A DNA stretch of 33,785 nucleotides from Microcaldota archaeon (GTDB lineage Archaea > Micrarchaeota > Micrarchaeia > Micrarchaeales > CABMGC01), in contig JAKAVL010000037.1 of assembly GCA_021817305.1 (NCBI GenBank), positions 1 through 33,785 on the forward strand. The letters are read 5' to 3'. Shown here piece after piece: positions 8,483 to 19,537 of this stretch (position 1 is its first letter; the number at the start of each line of letters is the position of its first letter). The notes beneath the pieces were generated by a model. That model had not been told where the DNA came from. It saw only the letters and a program-made list of their open reading frames with translations, and made no database searches. The position numbers were made by a program, and so were the translations under genes.

Positions 8483-8592
8483 GGGCTCTTGGCGCAGTAG
8501 CAGCGCGTTCCGTTCGCAAGGAACTTCTTAAAGGAGGTTCCATCAAGAATCGAAAAACGGAAAGGTCGCGGGTGCGAATCCCGCAGAGTCCA
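8483..8592 (+). tRNA. tRNA-Ala(CGC) with a 38-nt intron at 37/38
   Basis: Acceptor GGGCTCT/AGAGTCC with G3:U70 and A73; D stem GCGC/GCGC; anticodon stem TTCCG/CGGAA, loop TTCGCA^A with anticodon CGC 8515-8517; T arm GCGGG-TGCGAAT-CCCGC; no encoded CCA. Confidence 0.88.
8519..8556 (+). other. BHB-type archaeal tRNA intron (tRNA-Ala)
   Basis: Outer helix TTCCG:CGGAA, 3-nt bulges CAA (8517-8519) and AAA (8555-8557), 4-bp central helix TTCG(8513-8516):CGAA(8551-8554); internal hairpin GGAACTTC...GGAGGTTCC. Confidence 0.82.
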
Positions 8593-8607
8593 CAAATACT
8601 CAGGTGC

Positions 8608-9321
8608 ATGGCGGTGCAGGGCATGGTTGGGATTCCTGAACTTCGGCTTGCCAACCAGCACATCTCCAGTGCTGCATCAGGGAAACCCTCAGATATCGTA
8701 TTCTCACTCGGTGCCGTACAGGCCCAGGACTACAACGCAGCACTTTGGGCAGTGGGGTGCGCTGCAAGGCGGCTACAATACACCACATAACGGATGCAAT
8801 ATCGGATAGAAAGATAATCAGGACCTGGCCAATGCGCAGCACGCTGCATTTTGCATCGCCGAGGGATGTCCGGTGGATGCTGGGTCTTTACAGTGAGGAA
8901 TCAATTCCGAACTATCAGAAGCGGAATGGGCTGACGGAGCAGCTGGTCGAGAAGGGCCTGCATTTGATATCGAAGGCATTTGGCAAAAGCGGGCAGCTCA
9001 CATGCAAGGAGCTGCACGTTGCACTGACCGGAACAGGCATAAACGCACTAGACCGCACCGACGTTCAGAGCCATATTATCCGGAAGGCGGGCCTCAGCGG
9101 CACTGGTGCATCAACGCTTGCGCATAGCAACGGAATATTCCTCCCGACGATAGTTGTCGGTGGACAGGTCATAGGGACATGGAAGGTCAAGCCCGAAAAG
9201 AACGTGATTACAATACGCCTTTCGCCTTTTGCCAGATTGAGTGCCTGGCAGAAAACGCGAGATAGACTACGCCGCTGAGCGCTACGGCGAATTCCTCGGT
9301 ACGCATGCAACGGTCAGGTAA
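8608..9321 (+). pseudogene. Decayed AlkZ/YcaQ-like winged-helix (HTH_42-type) DNA glycosylase gene
   Basis: ELRLANQHISSAASGKPSDIVFSLGAVQAQDYNAALWAVG (frame 1) | VRCKAATIHHITDAISDRKIIRTWPMRSTLHFASPRDVRWML...SNGIFLPTIVVGGQVIGTWK (frame 3) | REIDYAAERYGEFLG (frame 1); frameshifts at the G run 8754-8757 and A run 9252-9255; the expected middle of the family is missing. Confidence 0.82.
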
Positions 9322-9390
9322 TCCTGCGTCATCTTATCGAGTCACTAGATTTATAAAAGGATACTGCGTAAAGTTGATAGGCGATGCAAA

Positions 9391-9618
9391 ATGGGAGAAG
9401 AAGCAGTAACATTGAATATGGGCGCTCCTGAGGAGTCCCAGCACAGTACCGGCGGCAGGCACTTCTGGAATACCGACGGGGAGGTCATCGCCGAGCTGCT
9501 GCAAATGGCCAAGGATCCGAAAAGCGAGCAGTGCGGCAAGTTCCTGCGCATGATACAGCATGCGAGGATGATGGCAATGATCTACGGGGCAGATGAGAAG
9601 GCTCCGGAGAACAACTGA
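9391..9618 (+). CDS. Small hypothetical protein (75 aa)
   Basis: ORF with ATG shortly downstream of TATA-like ttataaaagg (~9351); no recognised family. Confidence 0.5.
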   Translation: MGEEAVTLNMGAPEESQHSTGGRHFWNTDGEVIAELLQMAKDPKSEQCGKFLRMIQHARMMAMIYGADEKAPENN

Positions 9619-9640
9619 GCGCACACGATATAGTGGGAAT

Positions 9641-10975
9641 ATGGCTGCCAAGGACAAGAACAAGATCGGCGTCGCGGTCGCATCGGCAGTGGGCCTCGGC
9701 GCGATAATAGGCGCAGGCATATTCGTGATGAGCGGGACATCGATAGCGCTCGCGGGCGCGGATGCGCTCCTCGCATTCGTAATAGTCGGAATAGTCGCCA
9801 TAATAATCGCACTTGAGCTCGGGGAACTGGGCTCGATAATGCCCTTCGTACGCGGTGCATCATATTCCTACACGTACAAGGCATTCGGCAGTGAACTGGG
9901 CTTCATAACCGGCATGCTCAGGTATATGGCGCTTGCCGTGTCCATATCAGCTATAGCCCTTGGCTTCGGCTCCTACCTCTCCAATTTCATCTTCGGAAGC
10001 GCCATAACCTCCTATTCGATAGCATTCGCAATAGTCCTCATAGTCGTGCTCTCGGTAGTCAACATGCTAGGGGTAAAGAAGGCAGCGCAGTCCGACTTCG
10101 TTCTGGTGTCGATAAAGATAGCGATACTGCTAATATTCGTTGCGTTTGCCATGTTTATAGCATTGTCAAAACCCGGATTCTTCACAGGACTTACATTCAC
10201 CGCATCAAGCGGGGTCTTCAGCGGCATATTTGCGGCAAGCGTTGTCGTGTTCTTTGCCTATTCTGGATTCCAGTCAATATCAACAATCACTGACCGTATA
10301 AAGAACGGCGCAAAGGGATACGTAGCAGCAATACTCTCCGCGGTCGTCATAAGCATAATAATATACGTGCTTGTGGTGTTCGCGATGCTTCTTCTCATAC
10401 CCCAGCAGTCCTACGGGACGCTGCTCAAGGCCGACCCCATCGCATTTGCGCTCACGCACAGTGGCGCGCCTCAGTGGCTCATATACCTGATCGATGTCGG
10501 TGCGATGATCGCCACCGCCTCTGCCACCATCGCAATGATACTCAGCTCATCGCGCTCGCTGTACCAGATGAGCGAGGACAGGCTGCTCCCCAAGTTCTTC
10601 AGGAAGTACAACAAGAAGAAGGATACGGCCGAGAATGGAATAATCGTGTCCGCTATAATCGGCGTAGTAATGCTTTTCTCCGGGAACATTTACGTAATCG
10701 CATCTATAGCCAACTTCGGGCTGATGTTCGATTATCTATTGATAGGCTTCGATGTCATACACTTCAGGAGGAGGGGAGTCAAGGCGCCTTTCAGGATGCC
10801 CCTTTACCCATACCTCCCAATAATCGGCATAGCACTCCTGCTCCTGTTCTTCACGGGACTTACCCAGGAGGTCCTTGCCGCAGGGATAATAATCCTGCTT
10901 GTCGTCATGTTCAGTTACTACTTCCTTAGGGAGTACCGGAACAAGAAGATAATACGGATAAGGCTCTTCAACTAA
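9641..10975 (+). CDS. APC-superfamily amino acid permease
   Basis: GVAVASAVGLGAIIGAGIFVMSG N-terminal APC signature, about 12 hydrophobic segments, FAYSGFQSISTITDRIKNGAKGY. ATG 9641 preferred. Confidence 0.9.
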   Translation: MAAKDKNKIGVAVASAVGLGAIIGAGIFVMSGTSIALAGADALLAFVIVGIVAIIIALELGELGSIMPFVRGASYSYTYKAFGSELGFITGMLRYMALAVSISAIALGFGSYLSNFIFGSAITSYSIAFAIVLIVVLSVVNMLGVKKAAQSDFVLVSIKIAILLIFVAFAMFIALSKPGFFTGLTFTASSGVFSGIFAASVVVFFAYSGFQSISTITDRIKNGAKGYVAAILSAVVISIIIYVLVVFAMLLLIPQQSYGTLLKADPIAFALTHSGAPQWLIYLIDVGAMIATASATIAMILSSSRSLYQMSEDRLLPKFFRKYNKKKDTAENGIIVSAIIGVVMLFSGNIYVIASIANFGLMFDYLLIGFDVIHFRRRGVKAPFRMPLYPYLPIIGIALLLLFFTGLTQEVLAAGIIILLVVMFSYYFLREYRNKKIIRIRLFN

Positions 10976-11054
10976 TGGCAAGGCAGTACCAAGCCGCTCC
11001 CTTCTGCACATAAACTTTAAATACTTTCCTATTCGTTTAGGTTTAGGTGCATAA

Positions 11055-11234
11055 ATGGCGACCAGAAGAATCGGGGATACGAGAATAATAGAGAAGCCCA
11101 CTGCTCTTGTCAGAGACATCGACAGGCTGGGCAAGCTTCTACGGCGCGAACATTATGTCATGGGCGACGTGACCATGGCGCTCCATCTTGCAAATCGCCG
11201 CGACCGCATTCAGCAACACGCCACATACATCTAG
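11055..11234 (+). CDS. Possible small basic protein (59 aa)
   Basis: ATG 11055 with TATA-like ctttaaatacttt ~11015-11027; MATRRIGDTRIIEKPTALVRDIDRLGKLLRREHYVMGDVTMALHLANRRDRIQQHATYI*; too short for certainty. Confidence 0.4.
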   Translation: MATRRIGDTRIIEKPTALVRDIDRLGKLLRREHYVMGDVTMALHLANRRDRIQQHATYI

Positions 11235-11263
11235 GCGCGGCTGTTCTTTTACCGGCTCAGGCA

Positions 11264-11581
11264 TCAGAGCCCGAACTTGAAGCTTACCTTGTCGTCGATC
11301 ATTACTATCACGGTGAGGACTAAGGCTATTAGCAGCGTAATTATCGCAGTTGCTGCTACAGGCACAGAATTTATGTATACGCCATAAATGAGCCAAAGCA
11401 CCTGGCTGGTGCTCAGGAAGCCCAGCCAGTAGAATGATATCTCCTCGGCCCTCTTGGTTTTCCATACCTTGTGCAGCTGCGGTATCAGGGATACAGTTGA
11501 GAACACGGCAGCCACGTAGCCTACAAGAATGACGATGAGCAGTAAAGCACCCAAAGGCCGATTTGCCTGGTAGCTATCCAA
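11264..11581 (-). CDS. SemiSWEET / PQ-loop family small membrane transporter
   Basis: VAAVFSTVSLIPQLHKVWKTKRAEEISFYWLGFLSTSQVLWLIYGVYINSVPV: PQ-loop plus SWEET-type pattern. Confidence 0.85.
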   Translation of the reverse strand: MDSYQANRPLGALLLIVILVGYVAAVFSTVSLIPQLHKVWKTKRAEEISFYWLGFLSTSQVLWLIYGVYINSVPVAATAIITLLIALVLTVIVMIDDKVSFKFGL

Positions 11582-11695
11582 TCAATATCTATAAATATCG
11601 CACACTTGTCGTAATGCCTTACGTCATATGTAGAACATGCTTAAACCCTTATAAAGCTATAGATTAAAATGAAGTGCAGGCCAGAAGGTAAGCAA

Positions 11696-13435
11696 ATGTC
11701 TAGCGTTAACGTAAGAATCGCAGGCGCGAACGGCGACGGCGTAGAGTCCAGCGGGACCTTGCTCGTAAAGGTCGCGGCAAACGACGGCCTGCAGGTGTTC
11801 GGTTACAGGGGCTACCAGTCAATAATACGGGGCGGCCACGTGTGGTTCCAGGTGCGAGTGGGCGACGGAGCGGAGAAGCTTCACAGCCATGGCGACGGAA
11901 TAGACGTCCTTGTCGCATTGAACCAGGATTCAATTGCAAACCAGAAGAGCCACCTGAATGCAAATGCGGTGGTAATTTACGATCCAACAAAGGTCAATGT
12001 CCAGGGGCTTGATGCGTCGAAGTGCAAGCTCCTCCCAATCCCGATTCTAGACATAGCGGTCAAGGAGAGCGGCGACCCAATAATGAGGAACACAGTTGCC
12101 ATGGGCGCTGTGATAAAGCTGCTCGGCATAAACATGTCTGTGTTCGAGGAAGTAATAAGGCGCATGTTCGGGAGGAAGGGAGAAAACGTTGTCAAGAGCA
12201 ACGTCAATGTCGCATCGGTTGGCTACTCATACGAAGGGGTCTCGACGATCTACAGCCTGAAGAGCGACGGAAAGAAACGATACACTATGGACGGCAACAC
12301 CGCGCTATCGATAGGCGCATACGCGGCAGGATGCAAGTTCTATTCCGCTTATCCGATGACTCCTGCAAGCGGCGTGCTTCACTGGTTCGCAGCGCATGAC
12401 AACAAGGGTGTCCTATTCAAGCAGACAGAAGACGAGATAGCAGCCATAAACATGGCCATAGGCGCATCCTACTCCGGGGTCAGGGCCATGACTGGCTCAA
12501 GCGGCGGCGGCTTCTCGCTTATGGTCGAGGCGTTGGGATTCGCAGGGATGATAGAGACGCCACTTGTGGTTGTAGAGGTACAGCGAGGCGGTCCGAGCAC
12601 CGGACTTCCCACCAAGACTGAGCAGGCGGATCTGCTTTTTGTCATGCACGCGTCTCAGGGAGAATATCCCCGCATAGTCGTTTCCCCCAGGGACATGAAC
12701 GAGTGCTTCACCCTAGCAACGCAGGCGTTCAATCTCGCGGATAAGTACCAGTGCCCGGTCCTCATAATATCAGACATGTTCCTCGCCGAGCATTTCGGCA
12801 CGGTAGATGGCTTCGACATAGGCTCCGTCAAGATAGATAGGGGCAAGATCGCTATGGCAGTGCCGGAGGGCACGCGCTTCAAGCGCTATGAGTACACTCA
12901 GGACGGCGTCTCGCCGAGGTCCATTCCAGGAACCAAGGGCGTGGAGTTCATAGCCCCTACCGACGAGCACGATGAGTACGGCGACCTCATAAGCGATGCG
13001 TTCGCTGGTCTTGACAGCTCCATAGACACGCGGGTAAAGATGCATGACAAGCGCATGCGCAAGATGGACATGATGCTGAAGAATGAAAGCATCTTCGTGC
13101 CGCATATCGAGAATCCTAATGCGAAGCAGTTCCTTGTAACCTGGGGCTCCACTACCATGCCTTCACGGGAGGCCGTTGTTCTGCTTAAGGAAAAAGGACT
13201 CGACTTCGGCATAATCTCCTTCAGCTACCTCCTTCCTCTCGACAAGGAGAAGACTGCAGCAATGCTCAAAGGCAAGAAGCTGATAGACGTAGAGTGCAAC
13301 TACACTGCGCAGCTCGCACAGGTGATAATGATGAATACTGGCATAGACATAAAGGACAGGATTCTCAAGTACGACGGCGAGGCGATTACCGGCAAGGAGA
13401 TAGCCAAGAAGGCAGAACAGATATCAAAGACGTGA
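11696..13435 (+). CDS. 2-oxoacid:ferredoxin oxidoreductase, fused gamma-alpha subunit
   Basis: VRIAGANGDGVESSGTLL (gamma domain), GNTALSIGAYAAGCKFYSAYPMTPAS, RGGPSTGLPTKTEQADL. Confidence 0.93.
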   Translation: MSSVNVRIAGANGDGVESSGTLLVKVAANDGLQVFGYRGYQSIIRGGHVWFQVRVGDGAEKLHSHGDGIDVLVALNQDSIANQKSHLNANAVVIYDPTKVNVQGLDASKCKLLPIPILDIAVKESGDPIMRNTVAMGAVIKLLGINMSVFEEVIRRMFGRKGENVVKSNVNVASVGYSYEGVSTIYSLKSDGKKRYTMDGNTALSIGAYAAGCKFYSAYPMTPASGVLHWFAAHDNKGVLFKQTEDEIAAINMAIGASYSGVRAMTGSSGGGFSLMVEALGFAGMIETPLVVVEVQRGGPSTGLPTKTEQADLLFVMHASQGEYPRIVVSPRDMNECFTLATQAFNLADKYQCPVLIISDMFLAEHFGTVDGFDIGSVKIDRGKIAMAVPEGTRFKRYEYTQDGVSPRSIPGTKGVEFIAPTDEHDEYGDLISDAFAGLDSSIDTRVKMHDKRMRKMDMMLKNESIFVPHIENPNAKQFLVTWGSTTMPSREAVVLLKEKGLDFGIISFSYLLPLDKEKTAAMLKGKKLIDVECNYTAQLAQVIMMNTGIDIKDRILKYDGEAITGKEIAKKAEQISKT

Positions 13436-13439
13436 TAAA

Positions 13440-15452
13440 ATGGCAGACAACGCATCTACACAACCGACCGCTTCAGCACCTAAACCAAAGCAGGTTTACA
13501 CATCAAAGAACAAGCCCATATGGTGCCCCGGCTGTTTACTTGGAGAAACTCTGGTAATAAGCAATCCTTCTGCTAAGCCGATAAAGGACATATCGGTTGG
13601 CGAAAAGGTCTTAACTGCGGATGGCACCTATAAGAACGTCGCTGCAAGGATAGAACACCGACATGAGGGCAAAATGTATAAGATACGAGTAAAATTGTTT
13701 GGCACTGTAGATGCTACTCCAGAACATCCTTTTGTTGCAGTACCTAGAGAAAAATCCAAGCGCCACAACTTAGAATTTATTCCTAGAAAGGTGGAAGCCG
13801 AGGAACTTAGAAAAGGAGACTATCTCCTATTCCCCATAATGAAAGAGATTAAGGATATTGAAGAGATGCCTTTGATTTACGAGAAGAGGAAAAAAGACAC
13901 GCGTAGTAAAGATATGCCCTCAAAGATACCGATTAATGAAGACTTTCTACGTTTAGCAGGATATTACATAGCAGAGGGCAGCTCGCATGGCAGGTCCGTA
14001 ATATTTAGCCTTGATAAGAATGAAACGGAGATCATAGAAGACGTTAATTACTTGATGAGAAACATATTCGGATTAAATAGTCACATAACTCCGCAAAGCA
14101 GAGGCGGAAACGGTGTTGACGTTGTGTTTCATTCCTCTTATCTTGCTGAAATATTCAAGAAAATGTTTTCAGATTCAGCTGCTACAAAGAGTATCCCTCA
14201 CGAATTTATGTTCCTGCCAATCGAAAAGCAGAAGGCTCTGATAAGTGGCCTATGGAAAGGCGACGGATGCTTTATGGAGGCAAAGGCAGAGTATACTACC
14301 ATCTCAGTCGTTCTCGCAGAACAATTGAAAATGTTGCTCCTTAGACAAGGAATAGTTCCAATAGTCAGGCCAGAACCTGCTCATGGCAAACACAAGACAG
14401 CATACCGGCTTTACGTGTCATACTGCGATAGTTACAATAGATTAGCGCAGATAGTTGGTGTTGATGCGAGAAGAAAGAATTCCGGACAAAATAACTCATT
14501 CATACTGAAAAATGGCATGGTATATATGCCAATATCAAAAATCGAGACGTTTGACTATAACGGCACTGTCTATGATTTAACTATGGACAGTTCAGATCAC
14601 ACATTCGTAACTAACGTAACCGCCTCTGGAAACTGCGGCGATTTCGGCGTGTTCGCATCGATAAACAAGGCCCTGCAGGAGCTCAACATCGACAAGCACA
14701 ATGTTGCGATAGTCTCCGGCATAGGGTGCAGTTCGGCAATGCCGCACACGTTCAGCACCTACGGCGTCCACAGCCTCCACGGCAGGCTTCTCCCTACGGC
14801 TACCGGGATCAAGCTTGCGAACCACGGCCTTACTGTCATAGGCACAGGAGGCGACGGAGACGGCTACGGGATAGGTGGTGGCCACCTCGTGCACAGCGCC
14901 AGGCGCAACATAGACATGACATACATAATCATGGACAATGAAACGTACGGCCTTACCACCGGACAGACCTCCCCGACGGCGCTGCTCGGCCACAAGACCA
15001 AGTCAACTCCTTTCGGCGTCATAGAGATGCCGATAAATCCGATGGCTCTCGCGATAAGCGCAGGCGCGACATACGTAGCAAGGGGTTTCTCAGGGGATCC
15101 TGCACATCTGGCGCAGCTCATAAAAGGGGGCATAGAGCACAAGGGATTTGCGCTCATTGATGTCTTCAGCCCATGCGTCACGTTCAACAAGGACAACACC
15201 TTCGAGTGGTTCAGGAAGCGCATCTACAAGCTAGAGAGCCAGGGCCACGACCCGTCGAACCTTGGAATGGCGGTGCAGAGGGCATTCGAGGACATGGCCA
15301 CGCAGTACGAGAAGGTGCCCATAGGCCTTTTCTACAAGGCCAACAGGCCTACCTACGAAGACCTCGAGATATCGCTCAAGAACGGCCCGCTAGTAAGCCA
15401 GGCCATGCCGACGCAGGAGCAGATACAGGCGCTGATTGAGGAGAACAAGTAA
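13440..15452 (+). CDS. 2-oxoacid:ferredoxin oxidoreductase beta subunit interrupted in frame by an intein (303 aa extein + 367 aa intein)
   Basis: N-extein KNKPIWCPG, C-extein CGDFGVFASINKALQEL..., GIGCSS, GTGGDGDGYGIGGGHLVHSARRN TPP motif; canonical WCPGCGDFG is restored when 13533-14633 is removed. Confidence 0.95.
   Translation: MADNASTQPTASAPKPKQVYTSKNKPIWCPGCLLGETLVISNPSAKPIKDISVGEKVLTADGTYKNVAARIEHRHEGKMYKIRVKLFGTVDATPEHPFVAVPREKSKRHNLEFIPRKVEAEELRKGDYLLFPIMKEIKDIEEMPLIYEKRKKDTRSKDMPSKIPINEDFLRLAGYYIAEGSSHGRSVIFSLDKNETEIIEDVNYLMRNIFGLNSHITPQSRGGNGVDVVFHSSYLAEIFKKMFSDSAATKSIPHEFMFLPIEKQKALISGLWKGDGCFMEAKAEYTTISVVLAEQLKMLLLRQGIVPIVRPEPAHGKHKTAYRLYVSYCDSYNRLAQIVGVDARRKNSGQNNSFILKNGMVYMPISKIETFDYNGTVYDLTMDSSDHTFVTNVTASGNCGDFGVFASINKALQELNIDKHNVAIVSGIGCSSAMPHTFSTYGVHSLHGRLLPTATGIKLANHGLTVIGTGGDGDGYGIGGGHLVHSARRNIDMTYIIMDNETYGLTTGQTSPTALLGHKTKSTPFGVIEMPINPMALAISAGATYVARGFSGDPAHLAQLIKGGIEHKGFALIDVFSPCVTFNKDNTFEWFRKRIYKLESQGHDPSNLGMAVQRAFEDMATQYEKVPIGLFYKANRPTYEDLEISLKNGPLVSQAMPTQEQIQALIEENK
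13533..14633 (+). mobile_element. LAGLIDADG homing-endonuclease intein (C1 ... N367 | C+1)
   Basis: Block A CLLGETLVISNPSAKPIKDISVGEKVLTADG; block B GTVDATPEHPFVAV; DOD motifs LAGYYIAEGS and ALISGLWKGDGCF; block F VYDLTMDSSDHTFVTN; block G VTASGN|C. Flanking extein joins as WCPG|CGDFG. Confidence 0.95.
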
Positions 15453-15471
15453 GGTCCCTGTTACCTTGCTG

Positions 15472-15646
15472 TTACGACCAGAAGTCGTCAAACTGGAATG
15501 CCCCTTCCACATTGGCACTTATACTATTCGACCTTCTTTTTGCTTCTATAAGCGAGACTGCATGGTCTGTGAGCTCCTTTGCCCTGCTTTTCCGGCATGA
15601 AATTCTTCATGGGGTCATTTACGAGCACTATCCTTGGCTTGAACAT
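15472..15646 (-). pseudogene. Possible small ORF with a frameshift (or sequencing error), unknown family
   Basis: ATG at 15646: MFKPRIVLVNDPMKNFMPEKQG.. then a 1-nt shift at the GGG run gives AKELTDHAVSLIEAKRRSNSISANVEGAFQFDDFWS*; unshifted frame stops at 15524. Confidence 0.3.
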
Positions 15647-15678
15647 TTAAGGGTGGGAGGATGTCACAGCGTTTCTAC

Positions 15679-16560
15679 TTACGTTCGCCTTACCGACTGC
15701 GCAATCAGCTCAGATATGTCAACCAGTTTCGCCTTCTCAAAGTTCACGGTGTTAGTGCCATACAGCCTCGACACTCCGGCGGCGCCCATCTTCTCATGCG
15801 CATCATCCACCATGAGCAGGTGCACCGCTGCCGCGGCAACGTTTCTCGCCCCGTGGGACAGCGCGAAGCGAGCAGCCTGCGCAATCGTGCCCCCGGTGCT
15901 TATCATGTCGTCAACCACAACCACATCCTTGCTGTCTATGCCCTCCTTCGGGGCGTTTACTATGCTTATGTCCCCGGTGTGCCTGTCCCTTTGCTTGTCT
16001 ATGTGTGCGTAGTCGCATTCCAGCACTTCCGCAGCTGCCTTCGCAAAGTCCAGTGCGCCTTTGTCCGGAGCAAGTATGAACGGATCCTTGAAATCGCCCT
16101 TTATTCCAGAGGCAAGGTCCCTTATCGGATCAACTACCGCAACCTTTCCCTTGAATGCAGCCAGCGGCTCCTTCTTATGCGGCGCAACAGTGACAAGTTT
16201 CCCGACGCCGGCGCTGCCGAGCATCTCCAGAACCGCGCTTATGCTCACTATGTTGTTCTTGCCCTCGAAGTGCCTGTCCTGCCTCGCGTATGCGAGGTAA
16301 GGCACTACTGCAGTTATGCTCTTTACCCTGCGCCTCTTCATCTCGTGCGCCATGAGATACAGCTCGAGCAGCCTCTTGTCCTGGAACGGGTACGTGGTCT
16401 GCACAAGAACGACATCCTCGCCCTCCTCGTGGTCCTCAATCGTTATCTCGGATTCGCCGTCAGGGAATATCCTCTGCCCGGCCTCTACGAATCCTGCTCC
16501 CAGTACAGCCGCCAGCGGCTTCCCTATGCCTGTTTTCGAGGTGCCCTCTACGACTAACAT
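15679..16560 (-). CDS. prs: Ribose-phosphate pyrophosphokinase
   Basis: FPDGESEITI, PYLAYARQDRHFE, KDVVVVDDMISTGGTIAQAA PRPP-binding motif; ATG 16560 preferred (MLVVEGTSKT). Confidence 0.93.
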   Translation of the reverse strand: MLVVEGTSKTGIGKPLAAVLGAGFVEAGQRIFPDGESEITIEDHEEGEDVVLVQTTYPFQDKRLLELYLMAHEMKRRRVKSITAVVPYLAYARQDRHFEGKNNIVSISAVLEMLGSAGVGKLVTVAPHKKEPLAAFKGKVAVVDPIRDLASGIKGDFKDPFILAPDKGALDFAKAAAEVLECDYAHIDKQRDRHTGDISIVNAPKEGIDSKDVVVVDDMISTGGTIAQAARFALSHGARNVAAAAVHLLMVDDAHEKMGAAGVSRLYGTNTVNFEKAKLVDISELIAQSVRRT

Positions 16561-16666
16561 AATGCAACACCAACCTCCGCATGTATATTGCACGGAAAAC
16601 TTTTTAGGCTTTGCATGACAGCGACACAGCTAAATAGATACTGCGAGATGAATACCCGTTGGTCAC

Positions 16667-17080
16667 ATGGTTTCCATAGCCATAGTAAGGTCGAAGTTCA
16701 ATGCAGAGATAACGGACAAGATGCTTGAGAGTGCGCTGCGCCACGCGAAGAAGCTCGGCATACGGGTCGTGCATGTTGCTGAGGTTCCTGGCGCATTCGA
16801 CATGCCTGTCATAGTCAAGAAGCTGCTTTCCCGAAGGGATGTTTACGGCGTGGCGACGATAGGCGCGATAATAAAAGGCTCGACGAAGCACGACGAGTTG
16901 ATAGCATACCAATTATCCAATGCGCTCGTCAGGCTGTCATTGGAATACGGAAAGCCAGTGGGTCTCGGGGTCATGGGTCCGGGGATAACCTGGAGCCTTG
17001 CCAAGAAGCGGATAAAGCAGTACTCGGAGCAGAGCATTGAGGCGGTGCTGCGCGTTCATGACGAACTTGGAAGGATATGA
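16667..17080 (+). CDS. ribH: 6,7-dimethyl-8-ribityllumazine synthase
   Basis: IVRSKFNAEIT, VPGAFDMPVIVKKL, ATIGAIIKGSTKHDELIA. Confidence 0.93.
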   Translation: MVSIAIVRSKFNAEITDKMLESALRHAKKLGIRVVHVAEVPGAFDMPVIVKKLLSRRDVYGVATIGAIIKGSTKHDELIAYQLSNALVRLSLEYGKPVGLGVMGPGITWSLAKKRIKQYSEQSIEAVLRVHDELGRI

Positions 17081-17103
17081 TCATTGGTTTCATGCTGGCA
17101 TGG

Positions 17104-17877
17104 TCACAGCATATCTGCAGATTTGAAACCTTCCAGAACCCTGTTTTTGGCCTCATTATACCCTACGAACTCCTTTTCAGGAAGAAGCCTGGAAAGCTCC
17201 CTGGTCCATACAGATCCGAGTAAGTTTATCCGTCCTTCCAGCCTCTCTGAACTATACGCTTGGCCGTGTTCCCGCATCTTTTTGTCGATTAGCGATGCTC
17301 TGATTGCAATGCCTTTTTCCAAAAGAAAATACAGGTCAAACAAGTCCCTGGCCTTGGCGGTATGCCTGAAAAGCAGGGCATGGGTCTTCTCTGCCAGTAT
17401 CTCATCCTCTTTCATGACCAATGCCACATAGGGCATAACATCGGGATACCTAGGGTTTCTGCGCAATGCAGCTGGTGTTTCTATAACACTGGAGGTCAGG
17501 TCCACCTCAAGCTTCAGGTGCTGGTACTTTTCTGCGGTCTTGAATAAAGGGCCCATTATGCTCAGTTCATACGCCAGGATGTCGTGCTTATCCCTCCTCC
17601 TCAGAACCCGGGTGGAGTACGACTCAGATGCCTTCTTTACGGCGTTGTCCAGGCACCTCGCGGTTCCTGTTTTCCCGCCTCTCAGCAACGAGAAGTCCAG
17701 GTCATCGGAGAACCTCGGCAATCCGTAAAACTTGGAGAGGGCCGTGCCGCCCTTGAATACGAGGCCTGCAGCGTCCCTGTACACGAAGGAGAGGAGCAAC
17801 TCCTGCAGGTAGCCCTTCTCCTTTTGGTAAGGATGTTCGTAGTACTGTGTATTGAGGAGCGTGTCATTGTCAATCAT
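17104..17877 (-). CDS. AbiEii/AbiGii-family nucleotidyltransferase toxin (type IV TA)
   Basis: VFKGGTALSKFYGLPRFSDDLDFSLL (GGTAL/DxD NTase motif) and EKTHALLFRHTAKARDLFDLYFLL; ATG at 17877 overlaps the upstream antitoxin gene. Confidence 0.9.
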   Translation of the reverse strand: MIDNDTLLNTQYYEHPYQKEKGYLQELLLSFVYRDAAGLVFKGGTALSKFYGLPRFSDDLDFSLLRGGKTGTARCLDNAVKKASESYSTRVLRRRDKHDILAYELSIMGPLFKTAEKYQHLKLEVDLTSSVIETPAALRRNPRYPDVMPYVALVMKEDEILAEKTHALLFRHTAKARDLFDLYFLLEKGIAIRASLIDKKMREHGQAYSSERLEGRINLLGSVWTRELSRLLPEKEFVGYNEAKNRVLEGFKSADML

Positions 17878-18517
17878 AAAATCCCCCCTCCCTTGCGCAC
17901 GCCACAAGCTTCTTGGCTTGCTTCCTGTATCTATACCCAGAAAGAAGATCCAACACGCCGGTTATAACCTTCCTGTCACGGCTTTTCTCTGCGTAGCCTA
18001 TAAGTTTATCGACGTCTATGCGCGGAGGTTCTTCCAAGACGTCCATGTCCAGATCATTGACGTCCTTGAAGTAGAGTATGTCCACTATGGCTTTTTCAGG
18101 ATCTGCGATGAAGATGTTGCTATCGTCGTCTTTGTGATATCCGAACATCATCTCTGGTCTTATCTGCCTGAATGTTATACTGAAGCCCATGACGTTTTTC
18201 AGGTTCCTGTGTCTTTCTGGGGACAAAACATACACCGTATTGGGTATCTGTGTGGTGAGACCGTAATAGCGCAGTGCGGATACCATGCTTATATACGACG
18301 GGTAAAGCATGTGCGACGCGACCTCGTACTCGTTCGACCTCTCCTTCACATAGTACAGTCCGCGCTCCGCCCTGCCCAGCAGGTTGTTCTTCACTGCCCT
18401 ATGCAGGAAAAGCCTTGTATATGCCCTGGGCATTTGAAGCATCTTCAAGGCCTCGTTGAACGTAAACACAGGCATCCTGCTCTCGTTCAAGGCCTTTACA
18501 AAAGCACCGGTTTGCAT
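17870..18517 (-). CDS. AbiEi-like antitoxin / transcriptional regulator
   Basis: N-terminal winged-helix-like region, GRAERGLYYVKE, YPSYISMVSALRYYGLTTQIPNTVYVLSP, IADPEKAIVDILYF: typical AbiEi pattern; overlaps the toxin gene start. Confidence 0.87.
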   Translation of the reverse strand: MQTGAFVKALNESRMPVFTFNEALKMLQMPRAYTRLFLHRAVKNNLLGRAERGLYYVKERSNEYEVASHMLYPSYISMVSALRYYGLTTQIPNTVYVLSPERHRNLKNVMGFSITFRQIRPEMMFGYHKDDDSNIFIADPEKAIVDILYFKDVNDLDMDVLEEPPRIDVDKLIGYAEKSRDRKVITGVLDLLSGYRYRKQAKKLVACAREGGFYD

Positions 18518-18559
18518 GTATATATATCACAGCACACATATTTAAGCATTATGTTTCGT

Positions 18560-18579
18560 TAATTATCATTTGATAATTA
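18560..18579. promoter_or_regulatory. Perfect inverted repeat TAATTATCA-TT-TGATAATTA upstream of the abiE operon
   Basis: 9-bp arms with 2-nt spacer, directly upstream of a TATA-like CTTAAATATG (minus strand, ~18537-18546) of the antitoxin gene. Confidence 0.6.
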
Positions 18580-18587
18580 TTGCAACA

Positions 18588-19427
18588 CTACACTTTGCTG
18601 CATCTTTTAAGATACGCAGACCATCCCGCTTCCCTGTAAGCCTTTGCGGCCTTCAGCGGATCCGGCGCGCCGTATATTCCCCTCCCCACAATTATGGTAT
18701 CGGATCCTGCGGCGATTGCCTTGCCCGGTGATGAATACCGTTGGCCTTTTCCATCTCCTCCCTCCTCTATTTTCACTCCCGGGGTAAAGATAACGTGCCC
18801 AGGGACCGAAAGCGCTGCGAGCTTGGCCAGCTCATCCACGTCTCCGCCGTTGCCGATGTGCCCCGCAACCATGCCTTCGTATTTTCTTGCGAATTCCACT
18901 GCTTTCTTTGTGTAATCGTCAGTGGCAAGATTGCCTTCGGATGACATCTGCGAAAGTATTATCACACCTCTTGGCAGGGAGTCGCCTATCTGCTCATTGG
19001 TCCTGCCTATGCCCTCTATTATTCCAGGGCCCGGAACCACATGCACATTAACGAAGTTCGCCCAGTCTGCAATCTTATACACGCCCTTCGTGTACTGCAG
19101 CACCGCGGTGTTGCCTATGTCCGCCAATTTCCTGTCCTCGAATATCATGAAGTTGTGCTTCGACGCAAGCTCCACGAGCATTTTGGTTATATTCGGAGTG
19201 AAGTCCTCGAGTATGTCTATGTGGGTCTTGAGCACCGCGATCTCCGTGCCCATCGTTCCTGCAAGCCCCAGAAACCTGGCAGGATCGGTCTCATCATCAG
19301 AAAATATGAGGTTTGTCTTCTTTTCGGCCATTAACGCGAACAAACGTTTAGCTGCAGGATTCTTTGCCTGTTGCGACCTTTCCTCATATCCAGAGTTCAA
19401 ATGAGTCATCAAACCCACTACTATCAT
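18588..19427 (-). CDS. pyrF: Orotidine 5'-phosphate decarboxylase
   Basis: NFMIFEDRKLADIGNTAVLQY catalytic motif, HVIFTPGVKIEEGGDGKGQRYSSPGKAIAAGSDTIIVGRGIYG; start 19427 or 19409. Confidence 0.93.
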   Translation of the reverse strand: MIVVGLMTHLNSGYEERSQQAKNPAAKRLFALMAEKKTNLIFSDDETDPARFLGLAGTMGTEIAVLKTHIDILEDFTPNITKMLVELASKHNFMIFEDRKLADIGNTAVLQYTKGVYKIADWANFVNVHVVPGPGIIEGIGRTNEQIGDSLPRGVIILSQMSSEGNLATDDYTKKAVEFARKYEGMVAGHIGNGGDVDELAKLAALSVPGHVIFTPGVKIEEGGDGKGQRYSSPGKAIAAGSDTIIVGRGIYGAPDPLKAAKAYREAGWSAYLKRCSKV

Positions 19428-19429
19428 TA

Positions 19430-19537
19430 AGCCCTGGAAGGGAATCGAACCCTCGACATCTTGTTTTCCTGTGTTCTTGATTAAACCTCTTTCAAGAAGT
19501 TTACAAGACAAGCACTCTACCACTGAGTTACCAGGGC
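19430..19537 (-). tRNA. tRNA-Thr(UGU) with a 36-nt intron at 37/38
   Basis: Acceptor GCCCTGG/CCAGGGC, U73; D arm ACTC-AGTGGTA-GAGT; anticodon stem CTTGT/ACAAG, loop CTTGTA^A, anticodon TGT 19505-19503; T arm GAGGG-TTCGATT-CCCTT. Confidence 0.9.
19466..19501 (-). other. BHB-type archaeal tRNA intron (tRNA-Thr), homologous to the tRNA-Ala intron
   Basis: Central helix CTTG:CAGG with 3-nt bulges TAA and AAA; intron AACTTCTTGAAAGAGGTTTAATCAAGAACACAGGAA. Confidence 0.85.

Follow-up and report, generated by a model that had tools for sequence, protein, structure and literature searches.

The 33,785-nucleotide contig JAKAVL010000037.1 (the whole stretch of DNA analysed, hereafter the window) is one contig of a Micrarchaeota draft genome of 840 kb in 57 contigs that is 81% complete. 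It carries two intron-containing tRNA genes, tRNA-Ala(CGC) and tRNA-Thr(UGU), whose introns are, as judged from their sequences, members of a dispersed hairpin-plus-tail family of Micrarchaeota and some other DPANN archaea. This family, which bears the apparent signature of a triple helix and supplies or occupies tRNA introns, is our main finding. The two genes are exactly the tRNAs that the Rfam tRNA model (RF00005) finds in the window; a default ARAGORN scan of the window detected neither, and a fragment scan allowing introns called the Thr gene as tRNA-Thr(tgt). Both are otherwise intact tRNAs interrupted at site 37/38. An earlier note on this DNA had described the two introns as homologous, and its coordinates and identity count proved exact: the intron cores AACTTCTTAAAGGAGGTTCCATCAAGAA and AACTTCTTGAAAGAGGTTTAATCAAGAA are identical at 24 of 28 letters. 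The host genes are not recent duplicates, and near-identical introns stand in non-homologous tRNAs of one genome. The similarity goes beyond generic splice-motif letters, and pattern controls exclude chance; with up to 3 mismatches allowed, the core pattern matched the 840-kb genome at 2 places, these introns only, and a reversed control gave 0 matches.

Each copy of the element is 27-36 nucleotides (nt) long and consists of a hairpin (AAAC plus a pyrimidine run, a loop, then a purine run plus GTTT) followed by a single free base, A-n-C and a tail of five bases, with the core layout AAACTTCTT, loop, AAGAAGTTT, nATC, AAGAA. Searching relatives with the ungapped core pattern gave 24 matches in 21 of the 164 genomes of the order (reversed control, 0), and a gapped pattern found dozens of copies in 69 of these genomes and 35 of 54 genera (reversed control, 5 hits). 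Across the phylum, the element occurs in 97 of 301 genomes; the chromosome of Candidatus Micrarchaeum A_DKE carries a copy, and a scan of GTDB contigs revealed further copies in records titled Pacearchaeota, Nanoarchaeota, Aenigmatarchaeota and Diapherotrites. The source genome itself has looser copies in introns of tRNA-Thr(CGU), tRNA-Phe(GAA) and tRNA-Gly(UCC), in a degenerate tRNA-like gene and directly behind the 3' end of the 16S rRNA. Rfam searches, with E-values up to 1 or 0.5, found no family at the scanned copies, the only overlaps being host tRNA or rRNA and sub-threshold hits (such as RF03598 at locus L216). The earlier note had suggested that the element may be undescribed. This stands in so far as neither an Rfam family nor a literature description of its sequences in a relevant context was found, with the limit that subscription papers lay outside the search and may hold an earlier account.

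Two other sites in the source genome resemble the element in part. The tRNA-Tyr intron (L018) contains CTTCTTGgcaTCAAGAAG, in which the 5' arm and the tail are present and the middle arm is missing. A tRNA-Arg(UCU) gene (C9:26124-26182, minus strand; L311) has a very short T-loop insertion, AACTGGTTTGAG, where relatives have the full element, and this insertion is possibly a decayed copy. A degenerate tRNA-Glu-like gene at C5:7376 (L313) has an element copy and no matching acceptor 5' strand.

The tail of the element follows its stem, a regularity that lies beyond what the earlier note had observed. We write the element as L (the 5' arm, with positions 1-9 counted from the base), loop, M (the 3' arm), n, A, the position-3 base, C and the tail R (positions 5-9). 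We found R to be complementary to L without reversal, and so a mirror image of M. Stems vary, and the tail varies with them: in the order L/M/tail, the versions include CTTCTT/AAGAAG/CAAGAA, CTCTTT/AAAGAG/CAGAAA, CTTTTT/AAAAAG/CAAAAA, CCTTTT/AAAAGG/CGAAAA, CCTCTT/AAGAGG/CGAGAA, CTTTCT/AGAAAG/CAAAGA and CTTTTC/GAAAAG/CAAAAG. Among hairpins collected without any condition on R, R fits at 5/5 positions in 156, at 4/5 in 18 and at 3/5 in 20. Where the stem is asymmetric, 28 cases fit the non-reversed complement and 0 fit the reversed one. Fisher tests, whose p-values overstate independence given the shared descent of copies, gave 6e-10, 1e-10, 2e-28 and 2e-9 for stem positions 5-8 and 1e-6 for position 3, at which T goes with A-T and either G or C with G-C. 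Reversing the tail abolishes the association at positions 5, 6 and 8 but leaves it at the central position 7. Full matches numbered 107, compared with at most 55 in any of 2000 tail shuffles. Many loci were fetched with the tail fixed to RRAA, which limits the tails seen, not the pairing of stem with tail. Several stem versions occur inside single genomes, orthologous introns of one genus differ in version, and the rule mostly holds in adjacent array units that differ in stem.

Two other contacts were considered for the tail. Pairing with the 5' arm (TTCTTGA with TCAAGAA) seemed possible when only the Thr intron was considered, since TTCTT reads the same in both directions; it is rejected by the CTCTTT stem with its AGAAA tail (an example element is AAACUCUUUGGGAAAGAGUUUAAUCAGAAA) and by other asymmetric stems. 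A pseudoknot between the apical loop and the bases after the tail was also discarded, as no consistent complement was seen by eye. Since DNA copying cannot make a mirror repeat, a selected contact is needed, and we infer a third strand: the tail would follow the stem and run antiparallel to its purine strand, forming A.A-U and G.G-C triples. The tail co-varies with the stem pairs in the triplet code and orientation expected of a third strand. At positions 5-9, where M holds the purines, R and M are antiparallel, and A sits on U-A pairs and G on C-G pairs; by established triplet codes this is the layout of the purine motif. At position 3, L holds the purine, R is parallel to L, and it is mostly T that goes with A-T and either G or C with G-C, which is the layout of the pyrimidine motif. 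To our knowledge, no dispersed repeat has previously shown a base-by-base evolutionary signature of a purine-strand triple helix.

The introns also carry the features expected for splicing. The exon-specific 4-bp helices to which the earlier note had drawn attention (TTCG:CGAA and CTTG:CAGG) are present, the intron 3' ends match the host loop, and by sequence both introns have the central helix with two 3-nt bulges. For the Ala gene, RNAfold gave the anticodon stem, 3-nt bulges on either side of a short central helix in which 3 of the 4 TTCG:CGAA pairs form, a 9-bp intron hairpin, and the tail as an unpaired 9-nt strand. In the Thr case RNAfold instead favours another, extended hairpin at minimum energy, and the bulge-helix-bulge motif is therefore read from CTTG/CAGG in the sequence only; the Thr hairpin in its 8-bp version folds by itself. 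The splice motif is relaxed, because the 9-nt tail separates the intron hairpin from the central helix. The EndA protein of this genome (385 amino acids) matches the ARMAN-2 endonuclease over its full length (E 6e-148), which identifies it, by similarity, as a three-unit enzyme of the epsilon2 type. The ARMAN-2 epsilon2 splicing endonuclease is reported to cleave both bulge-helix-bulge (BHB) and bulge-helix-loop (BHL) introns (PMC12397907; PDB 4fz2, 9w2k).

Comparison of orthologous sites revealed a patchy distribution. Within the order, the ungapped pattern found element introns in tRNA-Thr(UGU), -Thr(CGU), -Thr(GGU), -Ala(UGC), -Ala(CGC) and -Ile(UAU). Intronless orthologues, whose existence the earlier note's idea of spread requires, are common for Ala-CGC, Thr-UGU and Ile-UAU. 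The Ala-CGC gene has an element intron in genomes G000, G027, G048, G049, G055, G059 and G148, and by locus also in G031, G050 and G052; it is intronless in most other genomes, and within the genus of the source genome its introns have different stem versions. For Thr-UGU we counted by eye approximately 22 genes with an element intron, 8 with an unrelated intron and 12 without any intron. Element introns of Ile-UAU occur in the source genus and a few other genomes, with many intronless orthologues, and the copy flanking 16S occurs in the source genome and a few others and is absent from most genomes of the order. As read from these sequences, the patchiness is as expected for repeated gain and loss.

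The family is not confined to introns. In a survey of 137 distinct copies in the fetched loci, ARAGORN placed 38 in tRNA introns; further ones were recognized by eye, including intron copies away from site 37/38, in the T-loop (L113, L299) or the D-loop (L200, L201). Copies lie within 25 nt behind a tRNA in 23 of the 137 cases, and 10 lie behind a lone tRNA-Ala 3' end. Others are found beside divergent tRNAs, directly 3' of the signal recognition particle (SRP) RNA (L046), 3' of tRNA-Ala (L040, L053), near protein genes (L034, L041, L048), behind stop codons, in the coding starts of pilin-like genes and, at L198, at an insertion inside 16S rRNA (an rRNA intron site). Tandem arrays occur, with units of differing stems.

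Several of these settings have features of their own. At L034, L099, L114 and L168, the copy is in frame within the signal-peptide region of a pilin-like gene and immediately precedes QSAMEYLMTYGW; the frames, read by eye, are open and need no intron, and an mRNA intron there is rejected. At the 3' end of 16S (for example, L224 and L243), helix 45 is followed by GATCACCTC in the same layout as the element (hairpin, nATC, tail), a likeness that is probably coincidence. In many f1 genomes, a conserved stretch of about 60 nt (GCTGAGG..CGACAAACCCGCAAGCGGGTCTGGGTGCGA) that resembles a structured RNA follows the element downstream of tRNA-Ala (for example, L100, L106 and L112). At L100, L101, L105, L108, L118 and L121, only the final 8-14 bases of tRNA-Ala (CGAGTCCA) precede the copy, as in attachment-site (att) duplications, and at L105 a tyrosine-integrase-like frame reads through the att-like site (Pfam 25.1 bits, below the 27.1 cut-off).

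We consider it most probable, at roughly 0.66, that both introns are host-adapted copies of this family, which inserted into new sites, were removed by splicing and later diverged. Elements would insert into new sites; one that landed in an anticodon loop, or in another loop where the 3' end of the intron can pair with four exon bases, would become a bulge-helix-bulge intron. The three-unit endonuclease, relaxed in its substrates, would then remove the inserted element, and the insertion would be tolerated and diverge in place. The vehicle could be excised intron RNA that is re-inserted and reverse-transcribed, or a DNA route.

Several points weigh against this account, beginning with the shared descent that affects the p-values above. 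Many Thr-UGU introns could be old and inherited. We caught no clean presence/absence pair with a target duplication at any one non-tRNA site, and the search for a mobilizing enzyme yielded only the integrase-like fragment at the att-like site. Removal of the Ala and Thr introns by EndA in vivo, followed by exon ligation, is a prediction. The triple helix is deduced from co-variation and geometry, and a five-base purine third strand is weak in isolation. The spacing between tail and splice helix in the introns is 1-2 nt, so the triple helix and the splice-competent fold are likely to be alternatives, and a full triple helix probably does not form simultaneously with the splice fold. Finally, strand asymmetry of mismatches does not separate RNA from DNA: under a symmetric filter G-U outnumbers A-C by 8 to 5 (p 0.58), and a preference for RNA drawn from asymmetric counts (17 to 7; 23 to 6) was dropped on this result.

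A bolder version, which we put forward tentatively and with some doubt, is that the element is a mobile element of a new class, made of RNA or single-stranded DNA: a minimal self-folding triple helix of 27-36 nt, its third strand held by three-way co-variation, that spreads in DPANN archaea, enters stable-RNA genes and gene ends, and is an ongoing source of tRNA and rRNA introns.

Alternatively, the element may not be mobile and may instead be a functional RNA signal, a structure for 3'-end formation, stability or processing that was recruited to the 3' ends of RNAs and is kept in introns as its strong hairpin helps the splice motif to fold. We regard this as unlikely, although 12 copies start within 5 nt behind a stop codon on the sense strand, compared with 2 that face stops on the opposite strand, copies follow 16S, SRP RNA and tRNA-Ala, and stem-tail co-variation across sites implies ongoing selection. 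However, the element is very patchy among close relatives, most 16S flanks of the order have no copy, no T run follows the hairpin, and termination within a tRNA intron would do harm.

It is rather unlikely that the family is a DNA-level mobile repeat, similar to repetitive extragenic palindromic (REP) sequences or miniature transposons, in which a single-stranded DNA triplex hairpin is recognized by a transposase or integrase and the introns are a by-product. The complementary strand does fit the classic pyrimidine motif (T.A-T and C.G-C, parallel), arrays occur, as do copies in non-transcribed orientations, and some copies lie in the att-like tRNA-Ala 3'-end duplications, one of them beside the integrase-like frame. 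Against this, sense orientation and RNA genes are preferred and no linked enzyme was found; viral carriage was rejected as well, with copies in only three viral contigs (3, 0 and 0 in the respective scans).

The earlier note had proposed that one intron spread between the two tRNA genes. The homology of the introns stands; a direct jump between Thr and Ala is not supported in the form proposed, as both belong to a larger family that also lies outside introns. That the Thr-UGU intron was copied to Ala-CGC within this genome by reverse splicing, as proposed for Thermoproteales, seems improbable to us. The 24 of 28 identical core letters, the G that both introns have at stem position 5 of the M arm (GAGGTT; A in most relatives) and the intronless Ala-CGC orthologues would all agree with it, but the shared letters are the family consensus. 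Moreover, other copies in this genome and those at the Ala site of congeners differ in stem, and the sequence from which the Ala copy directly derives is therefore not identifiable. Convergence of A+T-rich hairpins near splice sites, which low-complexity purine and pyrimidine runs might suggest, has a negligible chance given 24 matches versus 0 for the reversed pattern, the bimodal fit of the ATC tail and five-base rule in unselected stretches, the 28 to 0 split among asymmetric stems and the position-by-position stem-tail association.

Table 1 Positions in the window of the two tRNA genes, their introns and the parts of each element copy
Feature	Position	Strand	Basis
tRNA-Ala(CGC) gene with 38-nt 37/38 intron	8483..8592	+	RF00005, 50.2 bits; sequence
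Ala intron, holding one hairpin-plus-tail copy	8519..8556	+	Sequence; genome pattern search
Ala element hairpin, GGAACTTCT / GGAGGTTCC, 9 bp	8520..8541	+	RNAfold minimum-energy fold
Ala element tail, ATC-AAGAA; its AAGAA complements stem TTCTT without reversal	8542..8549	+	Sequence; stem-tail rule
CGAA, pairing with exon TTCG (8513-8516) as central splice helix	8551..8554	+	Sequence; RNAfold
tRNA-Thr(UGU) gene with 36-nt 37/38 intron	19430..19537	-	RF00005, 58.7 bits; sequence
Thr intron, holding one hairpin-plus-tail copy	19466..19501	-	Sequence; genome pattern search
Thr element hairpin, AAACTTCTT-ga-AAGAGGTTT; its first A belongs to the exon (A37)	19483..19502	-	Sequence
Thr element tail, ATC-AAGAA	19474..19481	-	Sequence; stem-tail rule
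CAGG, pairing with exon CTTG (19507-19504) as central splice helix	19468..19471	-	Sequence; absent from RNAfold minimum-energy fold

Elsewhere in the window, an open reading frame at 13440-15452 (plus strand) resembles a subunit of 2-oxoacid:ferredoxin oxidoreductase and, by eye, contains an in-frame intein-like part (CLLGETLV...VTNVTASGNC). A pair resembling the AbiEii/AbiEi toxin-antitoxin system, also recognized by eye, adjoins the Thr tRNA region (17104-18517, minus strand).

How archaeal tRNA introns originated is an open question, and a unit that occurs both inside and outside introns allows source, target and product to be compared in one genome and across a phylum. The element may show where many tRNA introns come from, and the stem-tail rule is accessible to bench tests on oligonucleotides of 30 nt. 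Transposition of tRNA introns is known from Thermoproteales, where it is attributed to Fujishima et al. 2010 (summarized in PMC4033280). The two cases share similar introns in different tRNAs, bulge-helix-bulge splicing and gain within an order; the Thermoproteales repeats are reported there as introns, whereas the unit described here belongs to another lineage, also lies outside introns and has a tail that tracks its stem. The ARMAN-2 introns and endonuclease (PMC12397907) come from the same phylum, with an enzyme to which our EndA is a full-length relative and with relaxed BHB and BHL substrates; the accessible text, compared without its substrate sequences, mentions no dispersed element or stem-tail rule. 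Archaeal group I introns occur in DPANN rRNA genes (PMC6125680). They are catalytic and hundreds of bases long, and the element was rejected as a remnant of one, no Rfam intron hit having been obtained at the scanned copies. REP and other palindromic repeats and miniature transposons are short dispersed hairpins that form arrays, lie between genes and vary in copy number. The element is alike in these traits and differs in occurring as a tRNA intron, in its stem-determined tail and in that no partner transposase was found. Natural RNA triple helices include the element for nuclear expression (ENE) of MALAT1 and PAN and riboswitches with A-rich tails such as preQ1-I, which resemble our element in combining a hairpin with an A-rich strand that is positioned to run alongside the helix. 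The ENE combines two U-rich strands with one A-rich strand, whereas one pyrimidine and two purine strands co-vary in the element; and unlike the tails of preQ1-I riboswitches, which do not match their stem base by base, the tail of the element does.

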